Shown here piece after piece: positions 1 through 63,531 of a stretch of DNA of 64,000 bases. The position numbers and the translations under genes were made by a program. Each line of letters starts with the position of its first letter. Position 1 is the first letter of the stretch. This stretch comes from Jiangella asiatica (GTDB taxonomy: Bacteria > Actinomycetota > Actinomycetes > Jiangellales > Jiangellaceae). Below the pieces are notes generated by a model that saw only the letters and a program-made list of their open reading frames with translations, searched no databases and had not been told where the DNA came from. The DNA lies in assembly GCF_004349065.1 (NCBI RefSeq), contig NZ_SMKZ01000033.1:1-64000 (forward strand), read 5' to 3'.

Positions 1-126
1 GCGTCGCTTCGACATGGCGAAGCGTCCAACGCCCAGCGGTCAGCCTCGCGACGCCATGCCGATGCCCCGAGACACCCCTATTCCGATGTCGTGAGACACC
101 CCATTCCGATGTCCTGCGCCAGGACA
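1..126 (-). mobile_element. Terminal region of a probable IS21-like element
   Basis: Read leftward from position 126, the DNA begins TGTCCTGGCGCAGGACATC and then repeats a unit close to CATCGGAATGGGGTGTCTC: copies at 93-113 and 69-90, and a degraded third near 53-66. Multiple short repeats just inside an end that starts with TG are a known feature of IS21-family transposons, where they bind the transposase. The transposase genes would lie left of the window. A 7-bp-arm palindrome (TGTCCTG/CAGGACA, 110-126) marks the presumed outer end, and another hairpin (CGCTTCG/CGAAGCG, 5-24) sits further in. The family name is a judgement from the repeat layout, not from a protein. Confidence 0.35.
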
Positions 127-140
127 CCGTCACCCCGACC
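125..140 (+). repeat. 16-bp direct repeat, left copy (partner at 35778-35793)
   Basis: CACCGTCACCCCGACC is found here and again at 35778-35793, and both copies are followed within 2-4 bases by GTGAG. The right copy abuts a truncated tRNA-Pro 3' half, so the pair could be the direct repeat left by an integrated element. A 16-mer match in 64 kb of GC-rich DNA can also occur by chance. Confidence 0.4.
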
Positions 141-168
141 ACGTGAGGGCTCAGGACCTCCCGGACAG

Positions 169-207
169 CCGGACCTACGAAGTCGTAGGTCCGGTTCTCT
201 GTTTTTT
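169..207 (+). terminator. Strong Rho-independent terminator
   Basis: CCGGACCTACGA (169-180) and TCGTAGGTCCGG (183-194) are perfect 12-bp complementary arms, followed by TTCTCTGTTTTTT (195-207). This is the clearest intrinsic terminator in the window. It would stop rightward transcription entering from the element or gene left of the window. Confidence 0.85.
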
Positions 208-596
208 GGGTTGGGGGCCGGGCGGGCGTCCGGTGAGCTGGTAGTGCCGGTAGCGGGCGATGTTCAGCGTCGCTACCGGCGTGCCGCGCAAGCCGATGGG
301 CGTGTGCGGTGAGTGAGACGAAGCAGCGCACCGGAGCCCGGCGGAGGTCAGCGCGGTGGCGAGGTGAGGGAGAGGCCGGCCGTGTGCGCGACCATGCGGG
401 CGACGATGCCGGACCAGCGGCCGACTCCATGGGGGTCGGCATGCGGGAGGACGGGGGTGGAGCAGGAGATGGCCAGCAGCGTGCCGTCTTCGGCCAGCAA
501 GTGGTCGAGGACGTCGGTAGTCGAGAGATCCCGGTGCCGAGCTCCGAACCTCGACAGTCACATCCGGGTTGCCTGCAATTCAGGCAGTTCGGTGCT
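208..596. other. Gene-free stretch with decayed coding traces
   Basis: I see no gene I can support. On the minus strand from about 512 down to 352 one frame reads like degraded protein (DVLDHLLAEDGTLLAISC, then a stop), but it has no start and I do not recognise a family. A stem-loop with 10-bp arms (GCCGGTAGCG 246-255, CGCTACCGGC 271-280) lies at its left. The stretch looks like debris between the IS end and the first real gene. Confidence 0.4.
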
Positions 597-10426: not shown

Positions 10427-11431
10427 GTGGCTACATCTCCGAACATGATCGCAGTCGCGCAGCACGCCGGCGTTTCGCTGGGCACGGTGTCCAACGTGCT
10501 CAACCGACCGGACCTCGTCGCTGAGGCCACCAGGGAGCGCGTGAACGCGGCGATCGCCGAGTTGGGGTTCGTCCGCAACGACACCGCCCGGCAGCTGCGG
10601 GTCGGGCGTAGCCGGACGCTGGGACTTGTAGTGCTCGACGTTGCCAACCCGTTCTTCACCGACGTCGCGCGAGGTGTCGAGGACATGGCCAACCAGCACG
10701 GCCTGGCGGTCATCCTGTGCAACTCCGACAAGGATGAGGACAAGGAGGCCGCGCACCTTGATCTGCTGGCCGAGATGCGCGTACGGGGCGTTTTGATCAA
10801 CCCGATCGGCACGTCCGACGGGCGTATCAAGGCGCTGCGCGACCGCGGCACGCCGGTGGTGCTGTTCGACCGGCGCGGCGACTCGTCGGTGGAGTGTTCG
10901 GTCGCCGTCGACGACGTTCTCGGCGGCCGGCTCGCGGCCCAGCACGTCATCGACGCCGGACATCGCCGGATCGCGTTCGTCGGCGGGCCGTCGACGCAGC
11001 GCCAGGTACAAGAGCGCTACAACGGTGCGATGGAGGCGATCGCGGCGAGCGGGACCAACGCGCAGCTGACGGTCATCGCGGCGCCGGCACCGGACGTCGT
11101 CGGCGGGCGGCAGGCCGGCGACCGGATGATCGCCGGCGCCGAGCTGCCGACCGCTGTGCTGTGCGCCAACGACCTGGTCGCTTTGGGTGTGCTGCAGGCG
11201 CTGAGTCGGGCCAGCATCCGGGTGCCCCAAGACGTCGCGATCGTGGGCTACGACGACATCGATTTCGCCGCGGCGGCGGGCGTGCCGCTGACCTCGGTGC
11301 GCCAGCCGCGGCAGCTGCTTGGCCGGACCGCCGCCGAGCTGCTACTGGCCGAGACTGCGCCGGGCAAGCACGAACACCAGCAGGTGGTGTTCGAGCCGGA
11401 GCTAGTGGTGCGCGACTCCAGCGCCACATGA
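10427..11431 (+). CDS. LacI-family transcriptional regulator
   Basis: The 334-residue protein has an N-terminal HTH (IAVAQHAGVSLGTVSNVLNR, residues 7-26), the hinge helix (NDTARQLRVGRSRTLGLV) and a periplasmic-binding-protein-like effector domain ending GYDDIDFAAAAGVPLTSV-RQP. LacI proteins repress catabolic genes until a sugar binds. GTG at 10427 is used; ATG at 10445 would still keep the HTH. It stands at the left edge of the polysaccharide cluster, where LacI-type operator-like sites occur upstream of several units (12311, 20969, 24705, 25172 and 35196). It is the only LacI gene here, so it is the best candidate regulator. Confidence 0.92.
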   Translation: MATSPNMIAVAQHAGVSLGTVSNVLNRPDLVAEATRERVNAAIAELGFVRNDTARQLRVGRSRTLGLVVLDVANPFFTDVARGVEDMANQHGLAVILCNSDKDEDKEAAHLDLLAEMRVRGVLINPIGTSDGRIKALRDRGTPVVLFDRRGDSSVECSVAVDDVLGGRLAAQHVIDAGHRRIAFVGGPSTQRQVQERYNGAMEAIAASGTNAQLTVIAAPAPDVVGGRQAGDRMIAGAELPTAVLCANDLVALGVLQALSRASIRVPQDVAIVGYDDIDFAAAAGVPLTSVRQPRQLLGRTAAELLLAETAPGKHEHQQVVFEPELVVRDSSAT

Positions 11432-33053: not shown

Positions 33054-35153
33054 TCAGCGGTAACGGATGACGGCGAGCTCGTCGGCGGCACCGCCGCTGA
33101 CGTTGCCGGCGAGAGCGCCGTCGAGGATGGTGCCGTGCGTGACGGGGGACGCCACCGGGTCGGCGGCGGAGTTCCCGGACTTTATGGACCAGCTGAGGTC
33201 GTTGCCGACCTCGCGGACGCCGGCCAGCGAGTCGATGCCGTCGCCGTTCCAGTCCCCGGCGACGAAGCGGTCCCCGGTCCGGCCGAACGTGAATGACGGC
33301 AGGTAGGTCGGATCGGTGTTGTTGTTGGTGCGCAGGAACATCTCTGTGCCGCGGATGAGACCGGGCGCGTCGATGCCGTTGCCGTTCCAGTCCCCGATGA
33401 CGAGGCGGTCACTGGCGCGGCCACCGGTGTAGACGACGTCGGCGGGACCGGTGTTGTCGTTGGACAGCAGGAAGGTCTTGCCCATGCGGATGCCGATGGT
33501 GTCGTCGCCGTCGCCGTCCCAGTCGCCGACGATCGCTTCGCTGCACGCCCGGCCGTAGTCGTAGCTCTGGGGGTTGGCTCCGGATGCCGAGTTGCTGAGA
33601 TAGAACGTAAGGCCTCTCCGCCAGCCGGGTGTGTCGTCGCCGTCACCGTCCCAATCGCCGAGGAAATGCGAGTCCGCATTGGCGGCCAGCGCGACCGGTG
33701 CGGTCGGCGTCGAGCCGGTACTGGCCTGGTACGTCACGGTCGGCCCGCCGGGCGGGTCGAGCAGCTCGCCGTTCAACAGCGGAGAGGTGGCACCGAAAGT
33801 CTCGGTGTCGTTGTAGCTGCGGACTGGTTCGCTGCGGATCACCTCCCTGATCGCGGGGTCGTACGGGTACTCCCGGAATGCCACCTCGGTCGCAGCAAGC
33901 CAGTTGGCCTTGATGTTCTGGGTGAACGCGCTGTTCTCGTAGTAGCGGCCTCGGCACGCGACGGCGTCGGTCAGATCACGCTCCGGGTTGACCGGAGCGG
34001 AGATGAACGGCGCATAGGTGGCGAAGCTGTCGCGCAGGCTCTCGCCGGAGTCGGGGATGTGCCGCCAGTAGTTGGTAGGTGCGTTGTTGTTCCTGGCCAG
34101 CTCCGCCGCGACGGCGACGAACTTCTGGCCGAGCGAGGAGTAGATCAAACCCCGGTCGGGCCCGTCCGGGGCGGTCCGGCTGGTCGCCCGGTATCGGTCG
34201 TAGGTCTCCGAGCGGAGCGGATCGGGCCAGCGGTCGTCGTCGGCATTGAGGCTGGGGTCGCGTTCTTGCAGCTGTTGGCCTGGCATGACCAGCACGCCGC
34301 CGAACACCTCGTGCAGGTCACGCGGGTTGTCGGGGTCGCTGAGCGCGTAGGAGACGAGATTGGCGTTCCCGGTGGCATACCCGATGGCGAGCTGGCCGAC
34401 GACGTGCGCGGTGAGGTGGTTGTTGTAGTACTGCCGGTTCAGCCACGGTGGTGTCACCGGCGTCGGCTCCGCCGTCGGCGAGGTCTTGACCTCGGTCGCG
34501 GTCTCCCAGAGGTGGGTGCTGTGCTGGATGGGCGAACGCATGCTGGCGAACCAGCGCTCGATCTCGGTGCGCTCCGCGGTTGTCAGGTATGGCTGCAGGA
34601 TCGCGTAGGCGTCGGCGAACACCACGAGCCTCCGCCCGATGTGCAGGCCGGCCGCATGCGCCATGGCCTTCCCGGGGTAGTGAAAGTCTTGCCAACTCGG
34701 CGTCGGATCGTCGGGTGGGAGGTCGGCATTGCAGAAGACGGCCCATTCCATCAGGGCGTCGCGGGCCTTGGTCAGGTAGGCGGTGTTCCCGTTCACGCGG
34801 TAGGCGACCGCGAGCGCGTGGATCAGGCGTGCCTCGAGACCGGCGTCCTCGGTCCAGATGCGGATGTCGTCGGACTCGTGCGGCATGAAGTCGCGGGCGA
34901 GCCCCTGGTTCGCCTGGTTCTGGACCAGGACCCATGACGCGTAGAACGGCGAGCTGGCGTCGGTGCTGCGGGCTTGGGCTCGCACGATCTCCGCCTCGGT
35001 CGTGAGCAGGACCGGGCGCTGGGTGGTGTCGACGGCCGCGGTCATGCCGGCCTCGTTCTTCTGGCTGGTGTGTCCCATCGCTGGGTGGGTGGCGGCTAGG
35101 CATGCTGCGACCACCAGTCCGGCGACGACGGAGCGCTTCTTCCCGAACAGCAT
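33054..35153 (-). CDS. Secreted alginate-lyase-family protein with C-terminal calcium-type repeats
   Basis: The 699-residue protein has a Sec signal (KKRSVVAGLVVAACLAATHPAMG-H) and a helical alginate-lyase-like domain (residues about 60-500, with YYNNHLTAHVVGQLAIGYAT). A C-terminal region follows with four repeats carrying D-x-D-x-D loops: GDWDGDGDDTPGW, GDWDGDGDDTIGI, GDWNGNGIDAPG and GDWNGDGIDSLAG. Such FG-GAP/VCBS-like repeats bind calcium and fold as a propeller-type module, probably holding the enzyme to the polymer or cell surface. ATG at 35153 follows AAGGAG. A LacI-type site lies 43 bp upstream. The lyase domain differs greatly from the tandem pair. Confidence 0.85.
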   Translation of the reverse strand: MLFGKKRSVVAGLVVAACLAATHPAMGHTSQKNEAGMTAAVDTTQRPVLLTTEAEIVRAQARSTDASSPFYASWVLVQNQANQGLARDFMPHESDDIRIWTEDAGLEARLIHALAVAYRVNGNTAYLTKARDALMEWAVFCNADLPPDDPTPSWQDFHYPGKAMAHAAGLHIGRRLVVFADAYAILQPYLTTAERTEIERWFASMRSPIQHSTHLWETATEVKTSPTAEPTPVTPPWLNRQYYNNHLTAHVVGQLAIGYATGNANLVSYALSDPDNPRDLHEVFGGVLVMPGQQLQERDPSLNADDDRWPDPLRSETYDRYRATSRTAPDGPDRGLIYSSLGQKFVAVAAELARNNNAPTNYWRHIPDSGESLRDSFATYAPFISAPVNPERDLTDAVACRGRYYENSAFTQNIKANWLAATEVAFREYPYDPAIREVIRSEPVRSYNDTETFGATSPLLNGELLDPPGGPTVTYQASTGSTPTAPVALAANADSHFLGDWDGDGDDTPGWRRGLTFYLSNSASGANPQSYDYGRACSEAIVGDWDGDGDDTIGIRMGKTFLLSNDNTGPADVVYTGGRASDRLVIGDWNGNGIDAPGLIRGTEMFLRTNNNTDPTYLPSFTFGRTGDRFVAGDWNGDGIDSLAGVREVGNDLSWSIKSGNSAADPVASPVTHGTILDGALAGNVSGGAADELAVIRYR

Positions 35154-35195
35154 CGGCCGACTCCTTCGCGCTGGTTGACAGGTGGGCCGATTGTA

Positions 35196-35209
35196 CTGAA
35201 ACGTTACAA
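35196..35209. promoter_or_regulatory. LacI-type operator-like site
   Basis: CTGAAACGTTACAA has the central CG and ten self-complementary positions of fourteen that define typical LacI-family operators (TGAAACGTTTCA). It lies 43 bp upstream of the secreted lyase start. Confidence 0.6.
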
Positions 35210-35734
35210 TTGGCGCTAGTGCCGAATTTGAGGCATATCCGTAATGCGATTGAGAGCCCACCGCCATGCGGACTCGGAACGCCTCTGGACGGAGGCCATG
35301 ACCTGCGCCGCGTTCGTCCTGGCCCGCGGCTTCGGCGATTCGAGCCGCCGATCGTGAGGGCGGGGCTGGGTGTTGGCCGTCGTCGTTTATCACGGTGAGG
35401 GCGTCATCATGGGCGACGACGAACGGTAGCCGATGCGGCACGGCCGGTCCGGTGATCGGCGACGCCACCGTGACGACGCAGTCGGTGGCTCGGGTGCCGC
35501 ACGGTCTGCACGTCGGCCCCGGCAGGGAAGTGCCACCGCGACGACCACGCTCGGTCAGGGCGCAGCAAGAGCATGGAAGATCTATGGGCCGATCTTGGCT
35601 GGACGATGTCGCCTGCATCTCGTCCGCGGCCCTGAGGGGCAAACGTGTCAGTTGGAGGCCGGCACCACCGAACACATCAACGGCGCCTACACCTTCTCCG
35701 AGATGTCCGCGGGTGGCGGTCTCGTGGTTGCGTT
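35210..35734. other. Gene-free stretch
   Basis: No gene is supportable. Minus-strand frames here include a protein-like string near 35500-35390 (VVTVASPITGPAVPHRLPF), without start or recognisable family, perhaps another decayed fragment. The stretch leads into the truncated tRNA. Confidence 0.4.
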
Positions 35735-35776
35735 GTTCGGGACGAAGAGGTCGCAGGTTCAATCCTGTCACCCCGA
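35735..35776 (+). pseudogene. Truncated tRNA-Pro(CGG) 3' half, probable integration scar
   Basis: From GTTCGGGACGAAG the sequence follows an actinobacterial tRNA-Pro(CGG): anticodon loop TTCGGGA with 3' stem CGAAG, variable region AGGTC, T-arm GCAGG-TTCAAT-CCTGT and acceptor CACCCCGA. The T-loop lacks one A and the 5' half of the tRNA is absent. Site-specific elements such as pSAM2 integrate in tRNA-Pro over a segment running from the anticodon loop to the 3' end, exactly the part kept here. No integrase gene is visible nearby. Confidence 0.65.
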
Positions 35777-35777
35777 T

Positions 35778-35793
35778 CACCGTCACCCCGACC
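35778..35793 (+). repeat. 16-bp direct repeat, right copy (partner at 125-140)
   Basis: CACCGTCACCCCGACC directly follows the tRNA-Pro fragment and repeats its last bases (GTCACCCCGA). The identical string at 125-140 also precedes GTGAG. Together they bracket about 35.6 kb, including the whole polysaccharide cluster. Confidence 0.4.
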
Positions 35794-36288
35794 GAGGTGA
35801 GACGATATGTAGATCTTCTGGCGGATCGTAGGCATCGGGATGCTTCGGCCGGTGGTGCGGGCTCGCGGGATCGCGGTGCTCAGGGAGCTGAAGTAAGAGC
35901 TCGCAGAGGATCGGGACAGGCGAGGTCGGGTGCATGGCGCGCCGCGCCGTGAGTGCGGCGTGCCACCGCTCGTGAGGCCGGCCATGAGCACTTGTCGCAT
36001 GGTTCTCGTGACGTGGGAATAGCGGCCGCCAGCGGGACGGAACGGCGTTCCTCGGAGGCTCGCTTCTTCGGAAGCCACCTCGAGGCCGCCGTTCGAACAG
36101 CCAGTCGTCGAACGGACTGCGGCGCCAGTGCGCGCTGCCGTTTCGGCCGGAAAGACATACCGGTTGCCGTGGCACGGCCGGTCCAGTACTGGACGGTCAC
36201 GGCAACGAACTCGTCATCTCGACCGGCGAGCAGGGCGGCTCGTTCGGCGATCAGCGTGGCGCCGAGCGGGTCTGTCGTGATCTTCTCC
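35794..36288. other. Gene-free stretch with fragmentary coding traces
   Basis: Nothing intact. A minus-strand string (DPLGATLIAERAALLAGRDD and EFVAVTVQYWTGRAT, about 36290-36170) looks like part of a real protein but I cannot name it; no start or end is visible. The stretch is bounded by the tRNA fragment on the left and the permease-gene copy on the right, so it is part of a rearranged junction. Confidence 0.4.
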
Positions 36289-36336
36289 GGGGAGCTGTCC
36301 ACGCCATGGCCGGAAGTCATGGCCGCGGCGTTGGTC
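36289..36336 (+). repeat. 48-bp inverted repeat, copy of permease gene segment
   Basis: These 48 bases are identical to the reverse complement of 37516-37563 inside the CUT1 permease gene, and a further 10 of 11 bases match on the left. They encode GELSTPWPEVMAAALV in the same sense. It is a stray piece of a permease gene placed opposite to the intact one. Confidence 0.85.
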
Positions 36337-36339
36337 CTT

Positions 36340-36541
36340 GCTGCGCGTCGGCGGACCCGGCCAGCCGGCCCAGCCCGTGTAGCCAGCCGCGCATGCCGGC
36401 GTCGCCGTACCGGTCGAACGCCTCGGCCAAGCGGGCGTCGGCGCCGAACACTTCGTACCCGGTGAGCGGCGGCAGCTGGTTGGTGACCTCGTGCGTGGCT
36501 GCCACCTGATCACGGTACGTCTTCAGTCGGAACCCCGCCAC
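36340..36541 (-). pseudogene. Truncated AidB-like acyl-CoA dehydrogenase
   Basis: Leftward from the ATG at 36541 the product begins MAGFRLKTYRDQVAATHEVT, then NQLPPLTGYEVFGADARLAE and LGRLAGSADA. This matches the N-terminus of actinobacterial AidB-like acyl-CoA dehydrogenases (THEVTNQPPPL-GYDVF form; E. coli AidB has THTVFNQPIPL). After about 65 residues homology ends where the permease-like repeat begins, and the frame stops at 36317. The whole flavin-binding part is missing. It overlaps the end of the GntR gene by 19 bases. Confidence 0.6.
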
Positions 36542-37344
36542 GACGGTGTCTCGTCGTGCGTGGCCATGAGCTCGGCGTGCCGGCGGGCGACCTCGTCCAG
36601 GATGGCGTCGAGGGACACCGTCGGACCCATCTGTCGTTCCAGCTCACGCTGCGCCACGACGTCGACCCGTCGCTCGAAGTCCGCGCCGTACATGTGCCGG
36701 GCGAGCTCGATGTGCTCGGACATGGCTGCGGCGGCCTTGTCGGGTTCGTGGTCGCGGATGGCGCGCCAGATCCTGTCATGTAAGGGGGCCCCGATCTGCC
36801 GCACCTTGCGGTCGGAGAGGCTACGCAGCATGAGCTCGAAGATGAGGTTGCTGATGGACGCGTAGGTAATCTCGATGACGGTGTTGTGGCTGGCCCGCAC
36901 GACCAGCGCATGGAAGGCGAGGTCGAGCTGGGCCTCCTCGAGGACGTGCTTCGCGGCATCGAACTCGTCGAGGCACCAACGCAGGGCCCGCACCTCGAGG
37001 TCGGTGGCGTTGAGGGCCGCGAGCCGGGCCGCGTATGTCTCGACCATGAGCCGGGCCTCGGTCAGCTCCCGGACGGTGGCGTTGCGGCGTCGGTAGAGGG
37101 CGTCCAGGCTCTTCGCGCCATCCATGGTGTCCGCAGCGCGTACGTAGGTTCCGCGCGACGACTGGATGTCGATGAGACCTTGGTCGGCCAGCCCGCGCAG
37201 CACCTCGCGCACCATGGGCCGAGACAGGCCGAACCGTTCGGCCAGGGTGCGCTCGGACGGCAGCTTCGTGCCCGGCGAAAGGCGCCCCGAGACGATCTCG
37301 TCGCGCAGATGGGCGGACAGGCCTTCTCGCGTGGGTATGGACAT
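36523..37344 (-). CDS. GntR-family regulator, FadR/FCD subfamily
   Basis: The 273-residue protein has an N-terminal winged HTH (LRDEIVSGRLSPGTKLPSER, LAERFGLSRPMVREVLRGLA, QGLIDIQSSRGTYV). Its helical FCD effector domain has metal-site residues in the D-x3-H (FDAAKHVLEEAQLDLAFHALVV) and H (HDRIW, EHIELARH) segments. Such regulators answer to sugar acids or related carboxylates. ATG at 37344 is chosen because earlier residues are not conserved. It lies directly downstream of the CUT1 importer and enolase-superfamily dehydratase genes. Two FadR-like operators (41791 and 41869) sit in front of those genes. Confidence 0.92.
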   Translation of the reverse strand: MSIPTREGLSAHLRDEIVSGRLSPGTKLPSERTLAERFGLSRPMVREVLRGLADQGLIDIQSSRGTYVRAADTMDGAKSLDALYRRRNATVRELTEARLMVETYAARLAALNATDLEVRALRWCLDEFDAAKHVLEEAQLDLAFHALVVRASHNTVIEITYASISNLIFELMLRSLSDRKVRQIGAPLHDRIWRAIRDHEPDKAAAAMSEHIELARHMYGADFERRVDVVAQRELERQMGPTVSLDAILDEVARRHAELMATHDETPSWRGSD

Positions 37345-37437
37345 CGGTCTCCCATCACCGTCCAGTCCGCGGGATCTCGACACCCGATCGACCTGCAAGT
37401 CTATAAGTATGACGATCAACGGCCCCAGGACGGACGT

Positions 37438-38322
37438 TCACTTGGAGGCCCCGGCAAGCCCGGCGACGAAGTACTTCTGGAATGCCAGGAAGAGCACCAC
37501 GGGCGGCGCGGCGAAGACCAACGCCGCGGCCATGACTTCCGGCCATGGCGTGGACAGCTCCCCGAAGAAGCTCGCGATGCCCATGCTGCCCACCCAGTCG
37601 GTCGACCGCGTGATGATGAGACGCGCGAACATGTACTCGTTCCAACTCGCGATGAACGCGAAGACGCCCGTTGCGACGACGCCCGGCAACGCCAGCGGGA
37701 GGGTGATGCGGAAGAGCACGCCGAGTCGGTTGCAGCCGTCCACACGGGCCGCCTCCTCGATCTCCTCGGGGATCGTGTCGAAGATGGACTTGAGCATCCA
37801 GGTGGCGACTGGCACCGCAAAGATGAAGTTTGCAACGACCAGGCCGTGTAGTCCGCCGACGAGACCGAGGTCGATGAACGCCTTGAAGATCGGGATCATG
37901 AGCACGATGCCGGGCATCATCTGCGTCGCCAGCGTCAGGAAGCCGGCCACACCGACGCCTCGCGTGTGCCAGCGCGACATGGCGTACGCCCCCCACGCGG
38001 CGAACACCAGGGTGAGTGCCGCCGAGCAGACAGCGACGACCAGCGTGTTGCGCAACCAGACGACGATCTCGGTGCTCTCCCATATCGCGCTGAACGCGGC
38101 GAAAGTGGGCTCCGTGGGCAGCAGCTGGGGCGGGAAGAGGTACCGCTCACCCCGCGGCTGCAGTGACTGGACGACCATCCAGTACAGCGGCCAGAGCGCG
38201 AAGAGCGTGATCAGCATGACGAGCAGCCAGGTCTGACCGGCCCGGCCGGCCCGGCGCACCAGGACGGCTCGTCGCCCTGGCGCCGCGGCACGGCGGCGCG
38301 CGTGATCGATGTCAAGCATCAT
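37438..38322 (-). CDS. ABC sugar transporter permease (MalG/CUT1 type)
   Basis: The 294-residue protein has six membrane helices and the MalG-like EAA loop EEIEEAARVDGCNRLGVLFRITLPLALPG, which docks to the ATPase. It pairs with the MalF-type permease upstream, whose stop it overlaps by 11 bases. The end of the gene includes a 48-bp segment (37516-37563) repeated in inverted orientation at 36289-36336. The C-terminus (FQKYFVAGLAGASK) is normal, so this is the functional copy. Confidence 0.93.
   Translation of the reverse strand: MMLDIDHARRRAAAPGRRAVLVRRAGRAGQTWLLVMLITLFALWPLYWMVVQSLQPRGERYLFPPQLLPTEPTFAAFSAIWESTEIVVWLRNTLVVAVCSAALTLVFAAWGAYAMSRWHTRGVGVAGFLTLATQMMPGIVLMIPIFKAFIDLGLVGGLHGLVVANFIFAVPVATWMLKSIFDTIPEEIEEAARVDGCNRLGVLFRITLPLALPGVVATGVFAFIASWNEYMFARLIITRSTDWVGSMGIASFFGELSTPWPEVMAAALVFAAPPVVLFLAFQKYFVAGLAGASK
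37516..37563 (-). repeat. 48-bp inverted repeat inside permease gene
   Basis: Exact inverted partner of 36289-36336. It belongs to the coding sequence of the permease, about 25 codons before its stop. The 1.2 kb between the copies carries the AidB-like fragment and the GntR gene. Confidence 0.85.
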
Positions 38323-39241
38323 GAGCCCTCCTGGTCCGCAGGTAGACGAGCGCAGGGACAGTGGCGAGCACGAGCACGACGGCGCCGAGCGTGGCTGCCC
38401 GGCCGAAGTCGTAGCGGTCGAACGCCTCGATGTAGGCAGCGAGCGAGAGCACGCGGGTCTCGCCGGCCGGACCACCACGGGTGGCCAGGAAGATGACCGT
38501 CACGTCCGCGCCGAGCGCCCACACGGTCTTCAGCAGGGCGAGGACGGCGATGACCGGTCGCAGGCCGGGAAGCGTCACGTAGCGGAACTGGGCGAAGGCA
38601 CCCGCGCCGTCGATGGCGGCGGCCTCGTAGAGCTCCTTTCGCACGTTCTGCAGCCCGGCGAGGAACAGGACGGCGGCGAACGGGAAGCTCCGCCAGATCT
38701 GGATCACGATGACGACGGGCAGCGCCCATACCGGTGAGTTCAGCCACGCGATGTTGGCATCTATCAGTCCTGCGGTACGCAGAAGGTGGTTGATGACGCC
38801 GTACTGGTTGTCCAGCGCCCATCGCCATACGAGGACGGCCGGCACGATCGGCAGCGCCCACGGCACGATGATCAGCATCCGGACCACGCCCCTGCCCCGG
38901 AATGCCCGATTGAGCACCAGCGCCGTCCCGAGCCCGAGCGCGAGTCCGCCGATCACGCTGCCAGCAGTGAACAGCAGTGTGACCCACACCGTCGTCCAGA
39001 ACGCACCGTCGGAGAACAGGTCCGAATAGTTCTGCACACCGACGAACCGACCGTCGACGGCGATGCTGCCCTCGTAGAAGCTTCGGCGCAGCACCTCCAG
39101 AATCGGTAGCAGGAAGCCGGCCGCGAGCACCGCGGCCGTCGGGGCCAGGAAGGCGTAGGGCACCCACGCGCGCCGGGGCCGGCGACGGGCCGCTGCACCG
39201 GCCATGGCGCTGCGTGGGGTCTGTGTCAGGGAAGCGGTCAT
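38312..39241 (-). CDS. ABC sugar transporter permease (MalF/CUT1 type)
   Basis: The 309-residue protein has six helices, an N-terminal RRAWVPYAFLAPTAAVLAAGFLLP typical of MalF/UgpA-like permeases, and the EAA loop KELYEAAAIDGAGAFAQFRYVTLPGLRP. It forms the channel with the downstream permease. Its ATG overlaps the binding-protein stop by four bases. No ATPase gene accompanies the system, as is usual for actinomycete CUT1 importers that share one MsiK-like ATPase. Confidence 0.93.
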   Translation of the reverse strand: MTASLTQTPRSAMAGAAARRRPRRAWVPYAFLAPTAAVLAAGFLLPILEVLRRSFYEGSIAVDGRFVGVQNYSDLFSDGAFWTTVWVTLLFTAGSVIGGLALGLGTALVLNRAFRGRGVVRMLIIVPWALPIVPAVLVWRWALDNQYGVINHLLRTAGLIDANIAWLNSPVWALPVVIVIQIWRSFPFAAVLFLAGLQNVRKELYEAAAIDGAGAFAQFRYVTLPGLRPVIAVLALLKTVWALGADVTVIFLATRGGPAGETRVLSLAAYIEAFDRYDFGRAATLGAVVLVLATVPALVYLRTRRAHDA

Positions 39242-40515
39242 GAGCCGAGCAGCGTCGTCAGCTCGTTCTGGATGGACTCGGCCGTCTCCTCGGCCGACAG
39301 GTCGTTCGTGAGCATGGCCTGGAAGCCGTCGCCGACAATGTTCATGACGTCGGTCGCCTGCTCGCCCACGCCGCCGGGAGCGTAGGAGACGGCGGTGGTC
39401 GCGGCATCCACGACCTCTTGGAGGTAGGGGTGCTCCGCCAGCAGGTCGGCCGGCACGTCGACGGGCATGCCCGGCGGCACGAACTTCTCGCGGATGGTGA
39501 GGTCCAAGATCTGGGGGTCGACGGTGTTGAGGATGAAATCTGCGGCCAGGTCCTTGTGTTGCGCGTCGCGCGGCATGGCCATGAAGAGATTGACCGAGAC
39601 GCTCGGGTTCGGCAGCGGCGCCTGGGCGAGCGACACGTGCTGGGCCACCTCCGGGTTCGCCTCCTGTGTGGCCACCGCGAGGAAGGGCCCGGTGACGACG
39701 GATGCGATCTTGCCGGACTGGAAGGCGTCGACGATGTCGGCGCTGCTCGTCCCCGCGGGCACGAGGCCGTCGTTGTAGAGCCCCTTGACGAAGTCGAGCG
39801 CCTCGACGACCTCGTCGGAGGTCGCGGTTGGCTCACCGTCGGTCACGAACGCACCGCCGAAGCCGGCGACGATGGGCATGAGGTACTGGTAGATGTCCGC
39901 TGGGCTGGCACCGCCGGTGACGAAGGCCGCCCCGAAGACCTCGTTGTCGGTGTCGCGAATGGCCTCGATGGCCGCACGCCAGTCCTCCGGCGTGGTCGGG
40001 ATTTCGACGCCGGCCTGTTCGAACAGCTGCCGGTTGAACACGAGCAGGCGCGGGTTGGAATGGGCGAGAAGCCCGTAGACCTCCCCGTCGACGACGGCGA
40101 CCTGTTCAGCCTCGATCATCGCCTCGACGTCGACGCCGGCCTCCTCCAGCCATGGGTTCAGCGGCTCCAGGAGATCCTGCTGGACCCACTGGGTCATCTG
40201 CGGGTCGTAGGGAATGACGACGTCGGGCGCCTGCCCGGACACCATCTGGGTGTAGGCCTGCTGGTGGTAGTCGGCGAACGGGATCACCGGTTTGTCGATG
40301 GAGGCGCCCGGGTTGTCAGCGACGGTCAGTTCCTCCATCAGCGCCATGTACTCGGCGTCCGCACCGCCTTCCCACAGGTGGCTGGGCACGCTGAGCACCT
40401 GGTCCCCGGGGTCGCCGGTCGACGGCTCGTCCGAGCCGCACGAGGCGGCCACCAGAGTTGCGGCGGCGACGATCGCGGACAGTCGCAACAGCCGGGACGT
40501 TCGCGAGATACTCAT
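39238..40515 (-). CDS. Extracellular solute-binding lipoprotein (CUT1 type)
   Basis: The 425-residue protein has a lipoprotein signal (LRLSAIVAAATLVAASCGSD, Cys at about 26) and a family 1 binding fold (DYHQQAYTQMVSGQAPDVVIPYDPQ, DNEVFGAAFVTGG, FQSGKIASVVTGPF). It would capture a sugar or sugar acid for the two permeases that follow with overlapping codons. It starts 48 bp downstream of an enolase-superfamily dehydratase in the same direction, linking the imported ligand with that enzyme's substrate. The ligand cannot be read from sequence. Confidence 0.92.
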   Translation of the reverse strand: MSISRTSRLLRLSAIVAAATLVAASCGSDEPSTGDPGDQVLSVPSHLWEGGADAEYMALMEELTVADNPGASIDKPVIPFADYHQQAYTQMVSGQAPDVVIPYDPQMTQWVQQDLLEPLNPWLEEAGVDVEAMIEAEQVAVVDGEVYGLLAHSNPRLLVFNRQLFEQAGVEIPTTPEDWRAAIEAIRDTDNEVFGAAFVTGGASPADIYQYLMPIVAGFGGAFVTDGEPTATSDEVVEALDFVKGLYNDGLVPAGTSSADIVDAFQSGKIASVVTGPFLAVATQEANPEVAQHVSLAQAPLPNPSVSVNLFMAMPRDAQHKDLAADFILNTVDPQILDLTIREKFVPPGMPVDVPADLLAEHPYLQEVVDAATTAVSYAPGGVGEQATDVMNIVGDGFQAMLTNDLSAEETAESIQNELTTLLGS

Positions 40516-40562
40516 GTTCCCTCCTGATCGACATCGTTGTGGCGGGAGCGGATGGTGAAGCG

Positions 40563-41756
40563 TCAGAGCCGGGTGACCCGACGGGCGACGTCCGGCGCAT
40601 TCATCCGGTCGGCGAGGTCGACGCCGAGCCCGGGGCGCCGGCTGAGGCGGACTGTGCCGTCGGCGACCTCGGGCAGACCGTCGACGAGCTCGCCGTACCA
40701 GGTGTGCAGAAAGGCGCGGACGGTCTCCTGGATCAGTCCGTTGGGCTGGCTGAGGACGAGGTGGCAGCACGCCGCGAAGGACACCGGCCCGGTACAGTCG
40801 TGGGGCGCCAACGGCACGCCGAACGTCTCCGCCAGAGCCGCGACCTTGCGAGCGTGGGTGATTCCGCCGGTCCACTGCGTGTCAACGGTGACGACGTCGA
40901 TCGCGCCGGTGCGCAGCAGTGGGAGGAAGCCCCGAGTGCCCACGCACGTCTCGCCCGTAGCAACCGGCACGTCGACGTCGGCGGCGAGTCGGGCGAACGC
41001 GTCGACCGCGTCGCCCCGCAGCGGATCCTCGACCCAGTAGGGCTCGTACGGTGCCAATGCCTGGCAGATGCGGGTTGCGGCGGGACGGCTCCACAGGCCA
41101 TGCAGTTCCACCATGATCGCCATGTCCGCGGGGCCGGCCACGGAGCGGATCTGTTCGATGACGCGGAGCCCGTCGGCGAGGTCGATCGGGGTGATCTCGG
41201 TACCGCGCGACGCCTCTGCGTAGCTGTCGAACGGCCACACCTTCATGCCGGTGACACCCTGGGCCAGTAGATCCTCGGTCAATTCGGCTGGCCGCGTCAG
41301 GAAGGCCCTAAGGTCCTCGTAGCGTCCGGTCGTGCCGAGGCCCCAGTTGCTGCTGTGCTGGCGGGCTGTCTGGCTGACGTAGCCCGGCCCCGCGCAGGTG
41401 TTGTAGATGCGAATGTCGTCACGGACAGGTCCGCCCAGCAGTTCGGCCACTGGTAGCTCGGCGCGCTTGCCCAGCAGGTCCCACAGCGCGATGTCGATGG
41501 CACCGAGCGCGCGCTTCTCGATCCCTCCGCCCTGGTAGCCGACGTACGGCTCGAGCAGCCCCGCCAGGCGTTCCGGGCCGAGGTCGTCCTGTCCCAGCAC
41601 CAGCGGGGCCGCGGAGTCGTGCAGGTAGGCCTCCACCGCGGTGGGGGAGAAGTACGCCTCGCCCAGGCCCGTGAGGCCCTCGTCCGTGTGCAGCAGGACC
41701 ATGCACACGTTGGGCTGGAACGCGGGGCGCAGGGTCTCGAGCGCCACGAGCTTCAT
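40563..41756 (-). CDS. Enolase-superfamily sugar-acid dehydratase (mandelate racemase group)
   Basis: The 397-residue protein has the capping domain and a TIM barrel with the three metal ligands (VELHG, WVEDPL, ATGET) and a His base near the end (LAPHDCTGPVSFAACCHL). MKVWPFD at the second strand is typical of the mandelate racemase and galactarate or gluconate dehydratase group. It most likely removes water from an aldonate or uronate-derived acid to give a 2-keto-3-deoxy acid. It leads the operon that includes the CUT1 importer, behind two GntR-type operators. The exact acid is not predictable here. Confidence 0.88.
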   Translation of the reverse strand: MKLVALETLRPAFQPNVCMVLLHTDEGLTGLGEAYFSPTAVEAYLHDSAAPLVLGQDDLGPERLAGLLEPYVGYQGGGIEKRALGAIDIALWDLLGKRAELPVAELLGGPVRDDIRIYNTCAGPGYVSQTARQHSSNWGLGTTGRYEDLRAFLTRPAELTEDLLAQGVTGMKVWPFDSYAEASRGTEITPIDLADGLRVIEQIRSVAGPADMAIMVELHGLWSRPAATRICQALAPYEPYWVEDPLRGDAVDAFARLAADVDVPVATGETCVGTRGFLPLLRTGAIDVVTVDTQWTGGITHARKVAALAETFGVPLAPHDCTGPVSFAACCHLVLSQPNGLIQETVRAFLHTWYGELVDGLPEVADGTVRLSRRPGLGVDLADRMNAPDVARRVTRL

Positions 41757-62830: not shown

Positions 62831-63531
62831 GGCACACCGCCGGACACCAGGATGCGGTCGACGAAGATGCCCGGCAGGTGGACGTCGTCGGGATGGATCC
62901 GGCCGGCCGGTACCAGCTCGTCGACCTGGACCACGGTGGTGCGCGCCGCCATCGCCATCACCGGGTTCAGCCCGCGGGCGGCATAGCGGAAGCGCAGGTT
63001 GCCCAGCTCGTCGGACCGCTCGGCCCGGATCAGTGCGAAGTCGCCGCGCAGCGGCGGTTCGAGCACGTGCTCCAGGCCGTCGATCACCCGGGTCTCGCGA
63101 CGTTCGGTGAGCAGAGTTCCGGCGCCGGTCGGCGTGAAGAACCCGCCCAGCCCGGCGCCGGCCGCCCGCAGCCGCTCGGCGAGCGTGCCCTGGGGGATCA
63201 GCTCCAGCTCGACCTCGCCGCTCTCGAACCGGGCGAGGAAGTCCGTGGCGGCCGGATGCACCGGGTAGGTCGCGATGACCCGGCCCACCTGACCGTTGCG
63301 GAACAACAGACCCACGTCTGCGGGGCGGCCCATGCCGCAGTTGTTGGTGGCGACGACGAGTCCGGAGGCGCCGAGGCGAGCGACGGCGTCGATGAGGACG
63401 TCGGGCACACCGACCCCGCCCCACCCGCCGACCAGCACCACGGAGCCGTCGCGGATCCCGGCGACAGCGTCGGACGGGTCCTGCACGAGCTTGTTCAGCG
63501 CCACCCTTGCACTCTCTGTTCGCTGTGTCAT
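62827..63531 (-). CDS. CoA-transferase subunit A
   Basis: The 234-residue protein starts MTQRTESARVALNKLVQDPS and has GSVVLVGGWGGVGVPDVLID, TNNCGMGRPADVGLLFRNGQVGRVIATYPVHP, GTLAERLRAAGAGLGGFFTPTGAGT and ALIRAERSDELGNLRF. This is the alpha subunit of class I CoA-transferases. It overlaps TctC by four bases and subunit B by four bases. A GTTCGC half-site (63518-63523) covers its first codons but has no partner, so I do not call it an operator. Confidence 0.93.
   Translation of the reverse strand: MTQRTESARVALNKLVQDPSDAVAGIRDGSVVLVGGWGGVGVPDVLIDAVARLGASGLVVATNNCGMGRPADVGLLFRNGQVGRVIATYPVHPAATDFLARFESGEVELELIPQGTLAERLRAAGAGLGGFFTPTGAGTLLTERRETRVIDGLEHVLEPPLRGDFALIRAERSDELGNLRFRYAARGLNPVMAMAARTTVVQVDELVPAGRIHPDDVHLPGIFVDRILVSGGVP

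Follow-up and report, generated by a model that had tools for sequence, protein, structure and literature searches.

The integrative element pSAM2 has a tRNA-Pro gene as its target, from the anticodon loop to the 3' end. For AICEs more broadly, passages of one account describe integration into tRNA 3' ends, tandem arrangements, and tRNA remnants that serve as sites (PMC3218068). CIMEs and the tandem accretion of integrative elements are treated in sections of a review (PMC5704250), and at a tRNA-Arg site of Streptomyces, the relevant part of another report records one to three elements together with an ancient remnant (PMC9513070). Our search of the open literature found nothing on integrative elements of Jiangella.

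Here we describe a locus in a 64,000-nucleotide stretch of the Jiangella asiatica genome (hereafter the window), which is positions 1 to 64,000 of contig C61 (70,262 bp) in an assembly (G000) of 7.03 Mb and 134 contigs. The window holds the 3' half of a tRNA-Pro(CGG) gene, which we call the scar. It is likely the inner junction of a decayed tandem that consists of a tRNA gene, a CIME-like island, a relic junction site and the relic of a second element. Like the CIME and accretion systems of PMC5704250 and PMC9513070, this arrangement would combine elements at one tRNA 3' target with directly repeated sites, an inner attachment site and a decayed member devoid of integration and transfer genes. 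Unlike them, its second member is ruined too, its distal attachment site was not found in our searches, and the mobility of its island is putative. Accretion at tRNA sites is already a known kind of event; the new part is the Jiangella tRNA-Pro example, and a less expected by-product is a set of IS481-type insertions at several tRNA 3' ends.

A half-tRNA with the boundary of an attachment core

The scar is 45 nt long. The genome has an intact tRNA-Pro(CGG) gene (C2:127-203, minus strand), and in an alignment with the 46 nt of this gene that run from the anticodon loop to CCA, the scar is identical at 44 of 46 positions (96%); one A of the T-loop is missing and one C of the CCA end has become T. 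The match has an E value of 5.9e-13 in a whole-genome search, which excludes chance. The 31 nt upstream of the scar agree with the tRNA 5' half at 10 positions, and 20,000 random 31-mers of the window agree at a mean of 9.06 of 31. Because this identity is at the random level, the 5' half is truly absent and the copy breaks off sharply. No tRNA of the window is recognised by ARAGORN. The initial annotation had noticed a tRNA-Pro(CGG) 3' half that lacks its 5' half and one T-loop base, and this half-tRNA is real. Its right end, however, had been set at 35793, which is 14 nt too far, as the bases there are not tRNA body but repeat part of the tRNA 3' end once more (Table 1).

This second copy has the same length as the target duplication of the IS at the tRNA end (see below), and it may be the footprint of an IS insertion at the scar. 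Positions 35778-35801 match positions 125-147 of the window over 24 columns (92%). Across the genome, the only core matches are the scar, C2 and a tRNA-Pro(GGG) gene; no distal core was found in the whole genome, and none lies in the left 40 kb of contig C65. Given its two differences from the tRNA, the scar core may no longer recombine. A search for tRNA-like matches in 93 plasmid records added nothing.

Table 1. Features of the window, with strand and basis.
Feature	Position	Strand	Basis
Far end of an insertion of the IS481 family; identity with G000:C57:1166-1292 spans exactly 127 bp	1-127	+	contig comparison
Target duplication (as read) of tRNA-Pro(CGG) 3' end, CGTCACCCCGACCA; 13/14 with TGTCACCCCGACCA	128-141	+	comparison
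Decayed start of older IS481-type IS	142-273	+	DNA matches
Polysaccharide-degradation island, 35,593 bp, between tRNA-Pro(CGG) and scar if the contig join holds	142-35734		gene prediction, Pfam, placement
Attachment-core relic (anticodon loop to CCA of tRNA-Pro(CGG))	35735-35779	+	alignment to own intact gene
Second partial copy of tRNA 3' end, CGTCACCCCGACCG, 14 nt	35781-35794	+	sequence comparison
Tyrosine-recombinase (integrase) pseudogene	35837-36299	-	tblastn; Pfam of intact homologues
AidB_N fragment, 74-aa ORF, first 48 of 156 model positions; piece of an acyl-CoA-dehydrogenase-like gene	36317-36541	-	Pfam

Bare copies of the same core occur elsewhere in the genus. Among the 11 relatives searched (G001 to G011), at least four carry at least five bare cores identical at 46 of 46 positions (G002, G008, G010 and, twice, G009). 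In all five copies seen, the 5' boundary equals that of the scar within one base. Each has only random-level identity to the tRNA 5' half (8-10 of 31), and the core match extends past the boundary by no more than one base. The core match and this common boundary support the earlier reading of the scar as a relic attachment site of tRNA-integrating elements. A possible further core-like match lies at G006:C58:142726-142788.

Integrase fragments beside the scar

The initial annotation had described the site as being without integrase, yet pieces of a ruined integrase gene adjoin the scar. They start 57 bp behind the core and face it. By tblastn, three parts of a 478-aa protein can be recognised there in several frames (about residues 172-212, 278-329 and 386-456). 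The GGRYSH motif is kept; the N-terminal part and the HGLRH box were not found in the pseudogene. In J. muralis (G009), the gene of an intact homologue points at tRNA-Pro and runs into the 3' end of the tRNA; the window relic has this orientation too. Integrases of J. muralis DSM 45357 are 100 and 66% identical to the G009 integrase on contig C49 that served as query. Matches of the homologues to Pfam recombinase families are modest: one of four families scores above the curated cut-off at locus L054, none of three at L053 and two of two at L056.

The neighbourhoods of this integrase family indicate what kind of element it came from. In G008 and G009, a member adjoins tRNA-Pro(CGG) or lies about 3 kb from it. 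In G008 and on C49 of G009, a member lies 1-3 kb from a coupling-protein gene. The products of these coupling-protein genes match T4SS-DNA_transf and TraG-D_C above the Pfam cut-off, and NCBIfam models score below cut-off for the one on C49; the one in G008 is short (249 aa). Around the integrase copy on C49 (L097), a search for tRNAs found none. Farther inside the tRNA-Pro region of G009 is a protein with VirB4 matches below cut-off. J. ureilytica and J. aurantiaca, for which the comparison covered this locus alone, have a homologue of the integrase beside tRNA-Val(CAC).

The element that ends beside the scar probably belonged to the coupling-protein kind and was not a pSAM2-type AICE, because members of the relic family have coupling-protein neighbours in G008 and G009, whereas the integrases of elements at the same tRNA in G010 and G002 are just 26-34% identical to it, over partial matches. 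Like the coupling-protein (VirD4/TraG-type) elements of G008 and G009, the window has an integrase homologous to theirs that faces the tRNA core. Unlike them, it has this integrase in pieces, and no transfer genes were found in C61.

The AidB_N fragment lies behind the integrase pieces. Positions 36340-36517 are 77-86% identical to a stretch in all 11 relatives and 77% identical to the genome's own contig C36. A 72-bp inverted repeat (36275-36346 and 37506-37577, 92% identical) has one copy inside an ABC permease gene (37438-38259) and the other across the border between the integrase pieces and the AidB fragment.

The intact tRNA and the probable C2-C61 join

The intact tRNA-Pro(CGG) gene, which the initial annotation had proposed to look for, sits at one end of contig C2. 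This contig ends 126 bp behind the tRNA, inside an IS, and C61 begins in the far end of such an IS. From the base after their 127-bp identity, C61 and C57 diverge, and C121 and C57 overlap by the same length. The abrupt end of this identity is why we read it as an assembly overlap with a k-mer of 127. A 36-nt pattern of the IS far end occurs at two places in the genome, C57 and C61, when up to three mismatches are allowed. Behind it, C57 continues with TGCCCCCGCTACCA, the 14-nt 3' end of tRNA-Met (C127). C61 continues with CGTCACCCCGACCA, which has 13 of 14 bases in common with the end of tRNA-Pro(CGG) and 11 of 14 with that of tRNA-Pro(GGG). As read from these duplications, C127 pairs with C57 and C2 with C61, so C61 most likely lies behind the intact tRNA-Pro.

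With this join, the distance between tRNA-Pro and the scar would be 36,984 bp, and the two would be in direct orientation. An earlier question was whether the polysaccharide cluster lies between the two; judging from the contig ends, it most likely does. The IS itself is 1377 bp long, measured through C121-C57, and C121 overlaps C57 by 127 bp although the C57 duplication belongs to tRNA-Met. Three near-identical IS starts (C2, C121 and C127) stand against two far ends (C57 and C61), which means that the assembly lacks one of the exits. Behind the duplication in C61 is the start of an older IS. Positions 129-273 are 84% identical to G008 and 129-245 are 89% identical to G010, where the IS start also follows an attachment core.

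The island and the rest of C61

A simple codon model predicts 26 genes in the island, all of which were scanned with Pfam. They include three sulfatases, three proteins with alginate-lyase domains and three Gfo/Idh/MocA oxidoreductases, as well as a short-chain dehydrogenase, a DUF1961 protein, a multicopper oxidase and a hemerythrin. An oligopeptide-type ABC transporter with its binding protein, a LacI regulator and two LuxR-type regulators are also present, and four of the 26 genes have no family match. No recombinase, relaxase, replication or transfer family was found among the 26.

To the right of the scar are 30 genes in the window and six further ones on C61, with metabolic, transport and regulatory functions. 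The exceptions are one transposase fragment and four genes that have no informative match or have domains of unknown function. A 34-aa ORF at 46541-46645 matches the Mutator-family transposase (PF00872) as a fragment. The scan of the gene at 63528 covered its whole length (L066:3529-4533). The FtsK-like TraSA/TraB family is absent from the 62 predicted genes of C61 (26 left of the scar, 30 right of it in the window and six beyond; Pfam). When ten proteins of relatives (integrases and Xis-like, RepSA, TraG-like, VirB4-like and EccE-like proteins) were searched with tblastn against C61, the integrase pieces alone were matched; the same ten had no match in the left 40 kb of C65.

Island genes have relatives in many places. 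Among the matches listed, none lies beside tRNA-Pro in relatives except the IS piece at 129-273, and a search for an orthologous place of the island through its own genes found none in the relatives searched. The LacI gene (10445-11431) has a DNA match of 76-78% in six of six relatives searched. In its neighbourhoods in G003, G008 and G010, other window genes were matched only at 27-34%. The transporter and sulfatase genes have many matches, mostly of 65-77% and at scattered places including the own genome, among the matches listed. Left of the scar, short patches (35369-35484 and 35647-35709) resemble DNA behind tRNA-Pro in G006 (77%, inverted) and the genome's own contig C63 (81%). For the surroundings of the scar (35153-41756), the matches listed for the 11 relatives are short patches, with no syntenic counterpart among them.

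At the right end of C61 (66.4-70.1 kb), genes are 70-80% identical to a region of G001, G004, G008 and G010 that is far from tRNA-Pro. The three genes of this end are grouped elsewhere in the four relatives, which is not decisive because the own-genome counterparts of the region are scattered (C60, C44, C61, C76 and others). The block that usually follows the hotspot described below is also split in this genome between C68 and C65, the C65 part being preceded by 38.9 kb of other DNA. The relocated relatives of the right end and the split block indicate that rearrangement has occurred as well.

A probable integration hotspot in Jiangella

A comparison of the locus in related strains had also been suggested, and it shows variable or element DNA behind the same tRNA-Pro gene. 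We compared downstream DNA in nine of the 11 relatives (all except G007 and G011) and took matches of at least 400 bp as shared chromosome. In all nine, the shared chromosome begins about 4-64 kb behind tRNA-Pro or, for G009, behind a bare core that lies on another contig. The intervening DNA amounts to about 4.4 kb in G001, 9 kb in G006, 11 kb in G004, 15 kb in G005, 18 kb in G002, 36 kb in G003, 54 kb in G010 and 64 kb in G008; in G009, it is about 11 kb, counted from the core of contig C16. For G003 and G005, these values run to a first shared piece from farther along the block, and some genome pairs have several kb more in common before it. Given this varied DNA, tRNA-Pro(CGG) is taken as an integration hotspot of the genus Jiangella.

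The bare cores lie behind tRNA-Pro at 13.1 kb in G010, 9.5 kb in G002, about 55 kb in G008 and about 58 kb on the same contig of G009, whose second copy is on another contig. The G010 element encodes an integrase, an HTH_17 protein and RepSA (Pfam), the replication initiator of the pSAM2 type. The G002 element is 90% identical to it over about the first 4.4 kb and 87% over the last 1.9 kb.

The tRNA-Pro(CGG) loci differ at the tRNA end. After CACCCCGAC, those of G000, G002, G003, G009 and G010 read CA, as in an encoded CCA end, and those of G001, G004-G008 and G011 read ACA, AAA or GCA. Most loci of the latter set have a common 3' flank. These tails are perhaps supplied by elements.

A proposed decayed tandem and its alternatives

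We favor a decayed tandem as the explanation of this locus. Its directly observed parts are the identity and boundary of the core, the integrase pieces, the variable DNA in relatives and the content of the island. Tyrosine integrases would recombine the 46-nt core, so that one side regains a complete tRNA and the other keeps a bare core. In the order of events that we infer, an element of which the integrase pieces are now the sole remnant would first have entered tRNA-Pro. Another integration would next have put the island between the tRNA and this element, with the core copy as the inner junction. The integrase would then have decayed, leaving no working one beside the scar. IS481-type insertions may have hit the tRNA end at least twice, as suggested by the decayed IS start that follows the target duplication. 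The resulting order would be the intact tRNA-Pro on C2, an IS481-family IS, a 35.6-kb island, the bare core and the left end of the second element.

The scar had been described earlier as the tRNA-distal attachment site of an element. It is an attachment site, but its place in the tandem would be an inner junction, since the integrase relic marks the end of an element behind the core. Several points weigh against the tandem: the tRNA end of the island lacks an integrase, no sequencing read spans the C2-IS-C61 join, which we infer, one IS exit is absent from the assembly, C121 overlaps C57 despite the tRNA-Met duplication of the latter, the searches for a distal core found none, genes of the right end of C61 have their relatives in another region, the usual downstream block is split, and the core differs from the tRNA at two positions. 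With attachment sites on both flanks (if the join holds) and no mobility genes, the island most likely has the anatomy of a CIME. We advance more tentatively the idea that IS duplications manufacture extra tRNA-end fragments beside cores and that the island is a CIME which a visiting ICE could still excise between the tRNA and the scar.

In the tandem, site-specific recombination would have brought the island. Alternatively, there was a single decayed element. The scar and the integrase relic would then be its attachment end, or a circular-form junction, moved off the tRNA, and the left 35 kb would be unrelated chromosome that arrived by rearrangement, for example between IS copies. The lack of mobility genes in the left 35 kb, the scattered relatives of C61 genes, the several IS copies in the genome and the displacement of part of the usual downstream block are all consistent with this scenario. 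However, the IS shared by C2 and C61 has matching duplications (13 of 14), which recombination between different IS copies would separate, and the older IS relic at the same tRNA end indicates that the neighbourhood is old. We consider the single element unlikely.

The reading of the initial annotation, in which the scar is the distal attachment site of a pSAM2-type AICE with the polysaccharide cluster as its body, is very improbable. The same tRNA segment, from the anticodon loop to the 3' end, does bound the RepSA element of G010 and the similar element of G002, and the island most likely lies between the tRNA and the scar. Yet neither the RepSA nor the integrase of G010 has a match in C61 at E 1e-3, and the Pfam-scanned genes of C61, unlike a pSAM2-type AICE, include no replication or transfer family. 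The adjoining integrase relic is of another family, and what follows the core is the end of an element and not plain chromosome. That family sits by coupling-protein genes in G008 and G009, not by RepSA, and the elements at this tRNA that bear RepSA (G010, and G002 by DNA similarity) have a different integrase. An ordinary decaying duplicate of tRNA-Pro, unlinked to integration, would suit a copy with one base lost, one changed and no ARAGORN call, but it is scarcely credible beside integrase pieces, and we rejected it because the break point is the core boundary of five other bare copies.

The preferred tandem suggests a route by which a polysaccharide-degradation cluster came beside a Jiangella tRNA gene. 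It also illustrates how a tandem of elements that has decayed can be recognised from integrase pieces and the half of a tRNA beside them.

IS481-type insertions at tRNA ends

In this genome, IS copies start 0-2 nt behind tRNA-Pro(CGG) on C2, tRNA-Pro(GGG) on C121, tRNA-Met on C127 and tRNA-Thr on C91. The likeness to the IS481 family lies in the transposase of the G008 copy, which scores 233 bits against a model cut-off of 224 bits. The copies here differ in lying 0-3 nt behind tRNA ends or cores, with 14-bp duplications where both ends are seen. Our search of the open literature, including the available part of PMC9569102, found no report of IS481-type elements that target tRNA ends. Such insertions may be of wider interest. 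They break assemblies at hotspot boundaries and thereby hide islands.

The loci with an IS at a tRNA are C2, C121, C127, C91 and C57:1293-1320 of G000, L026, L031, L032, L057, L058 and window positions 128-273, a count that is biased because the query included tRNA letters and the loci from other genera were chosen for tRNA-Pro. Across them, the distance from a tRNA 3' end (Pro CGG, Pro GGG, Met and Thr) or a bare attachment core to the IS481-type start behind it (TGTGATGTCTC) is 0-3 nt. Where both IS ends are seen, the 14-bp duplications agree at 14 of 14 positions for tRNA-Met and 13 of 14 for tRNA-Pro(CGG).
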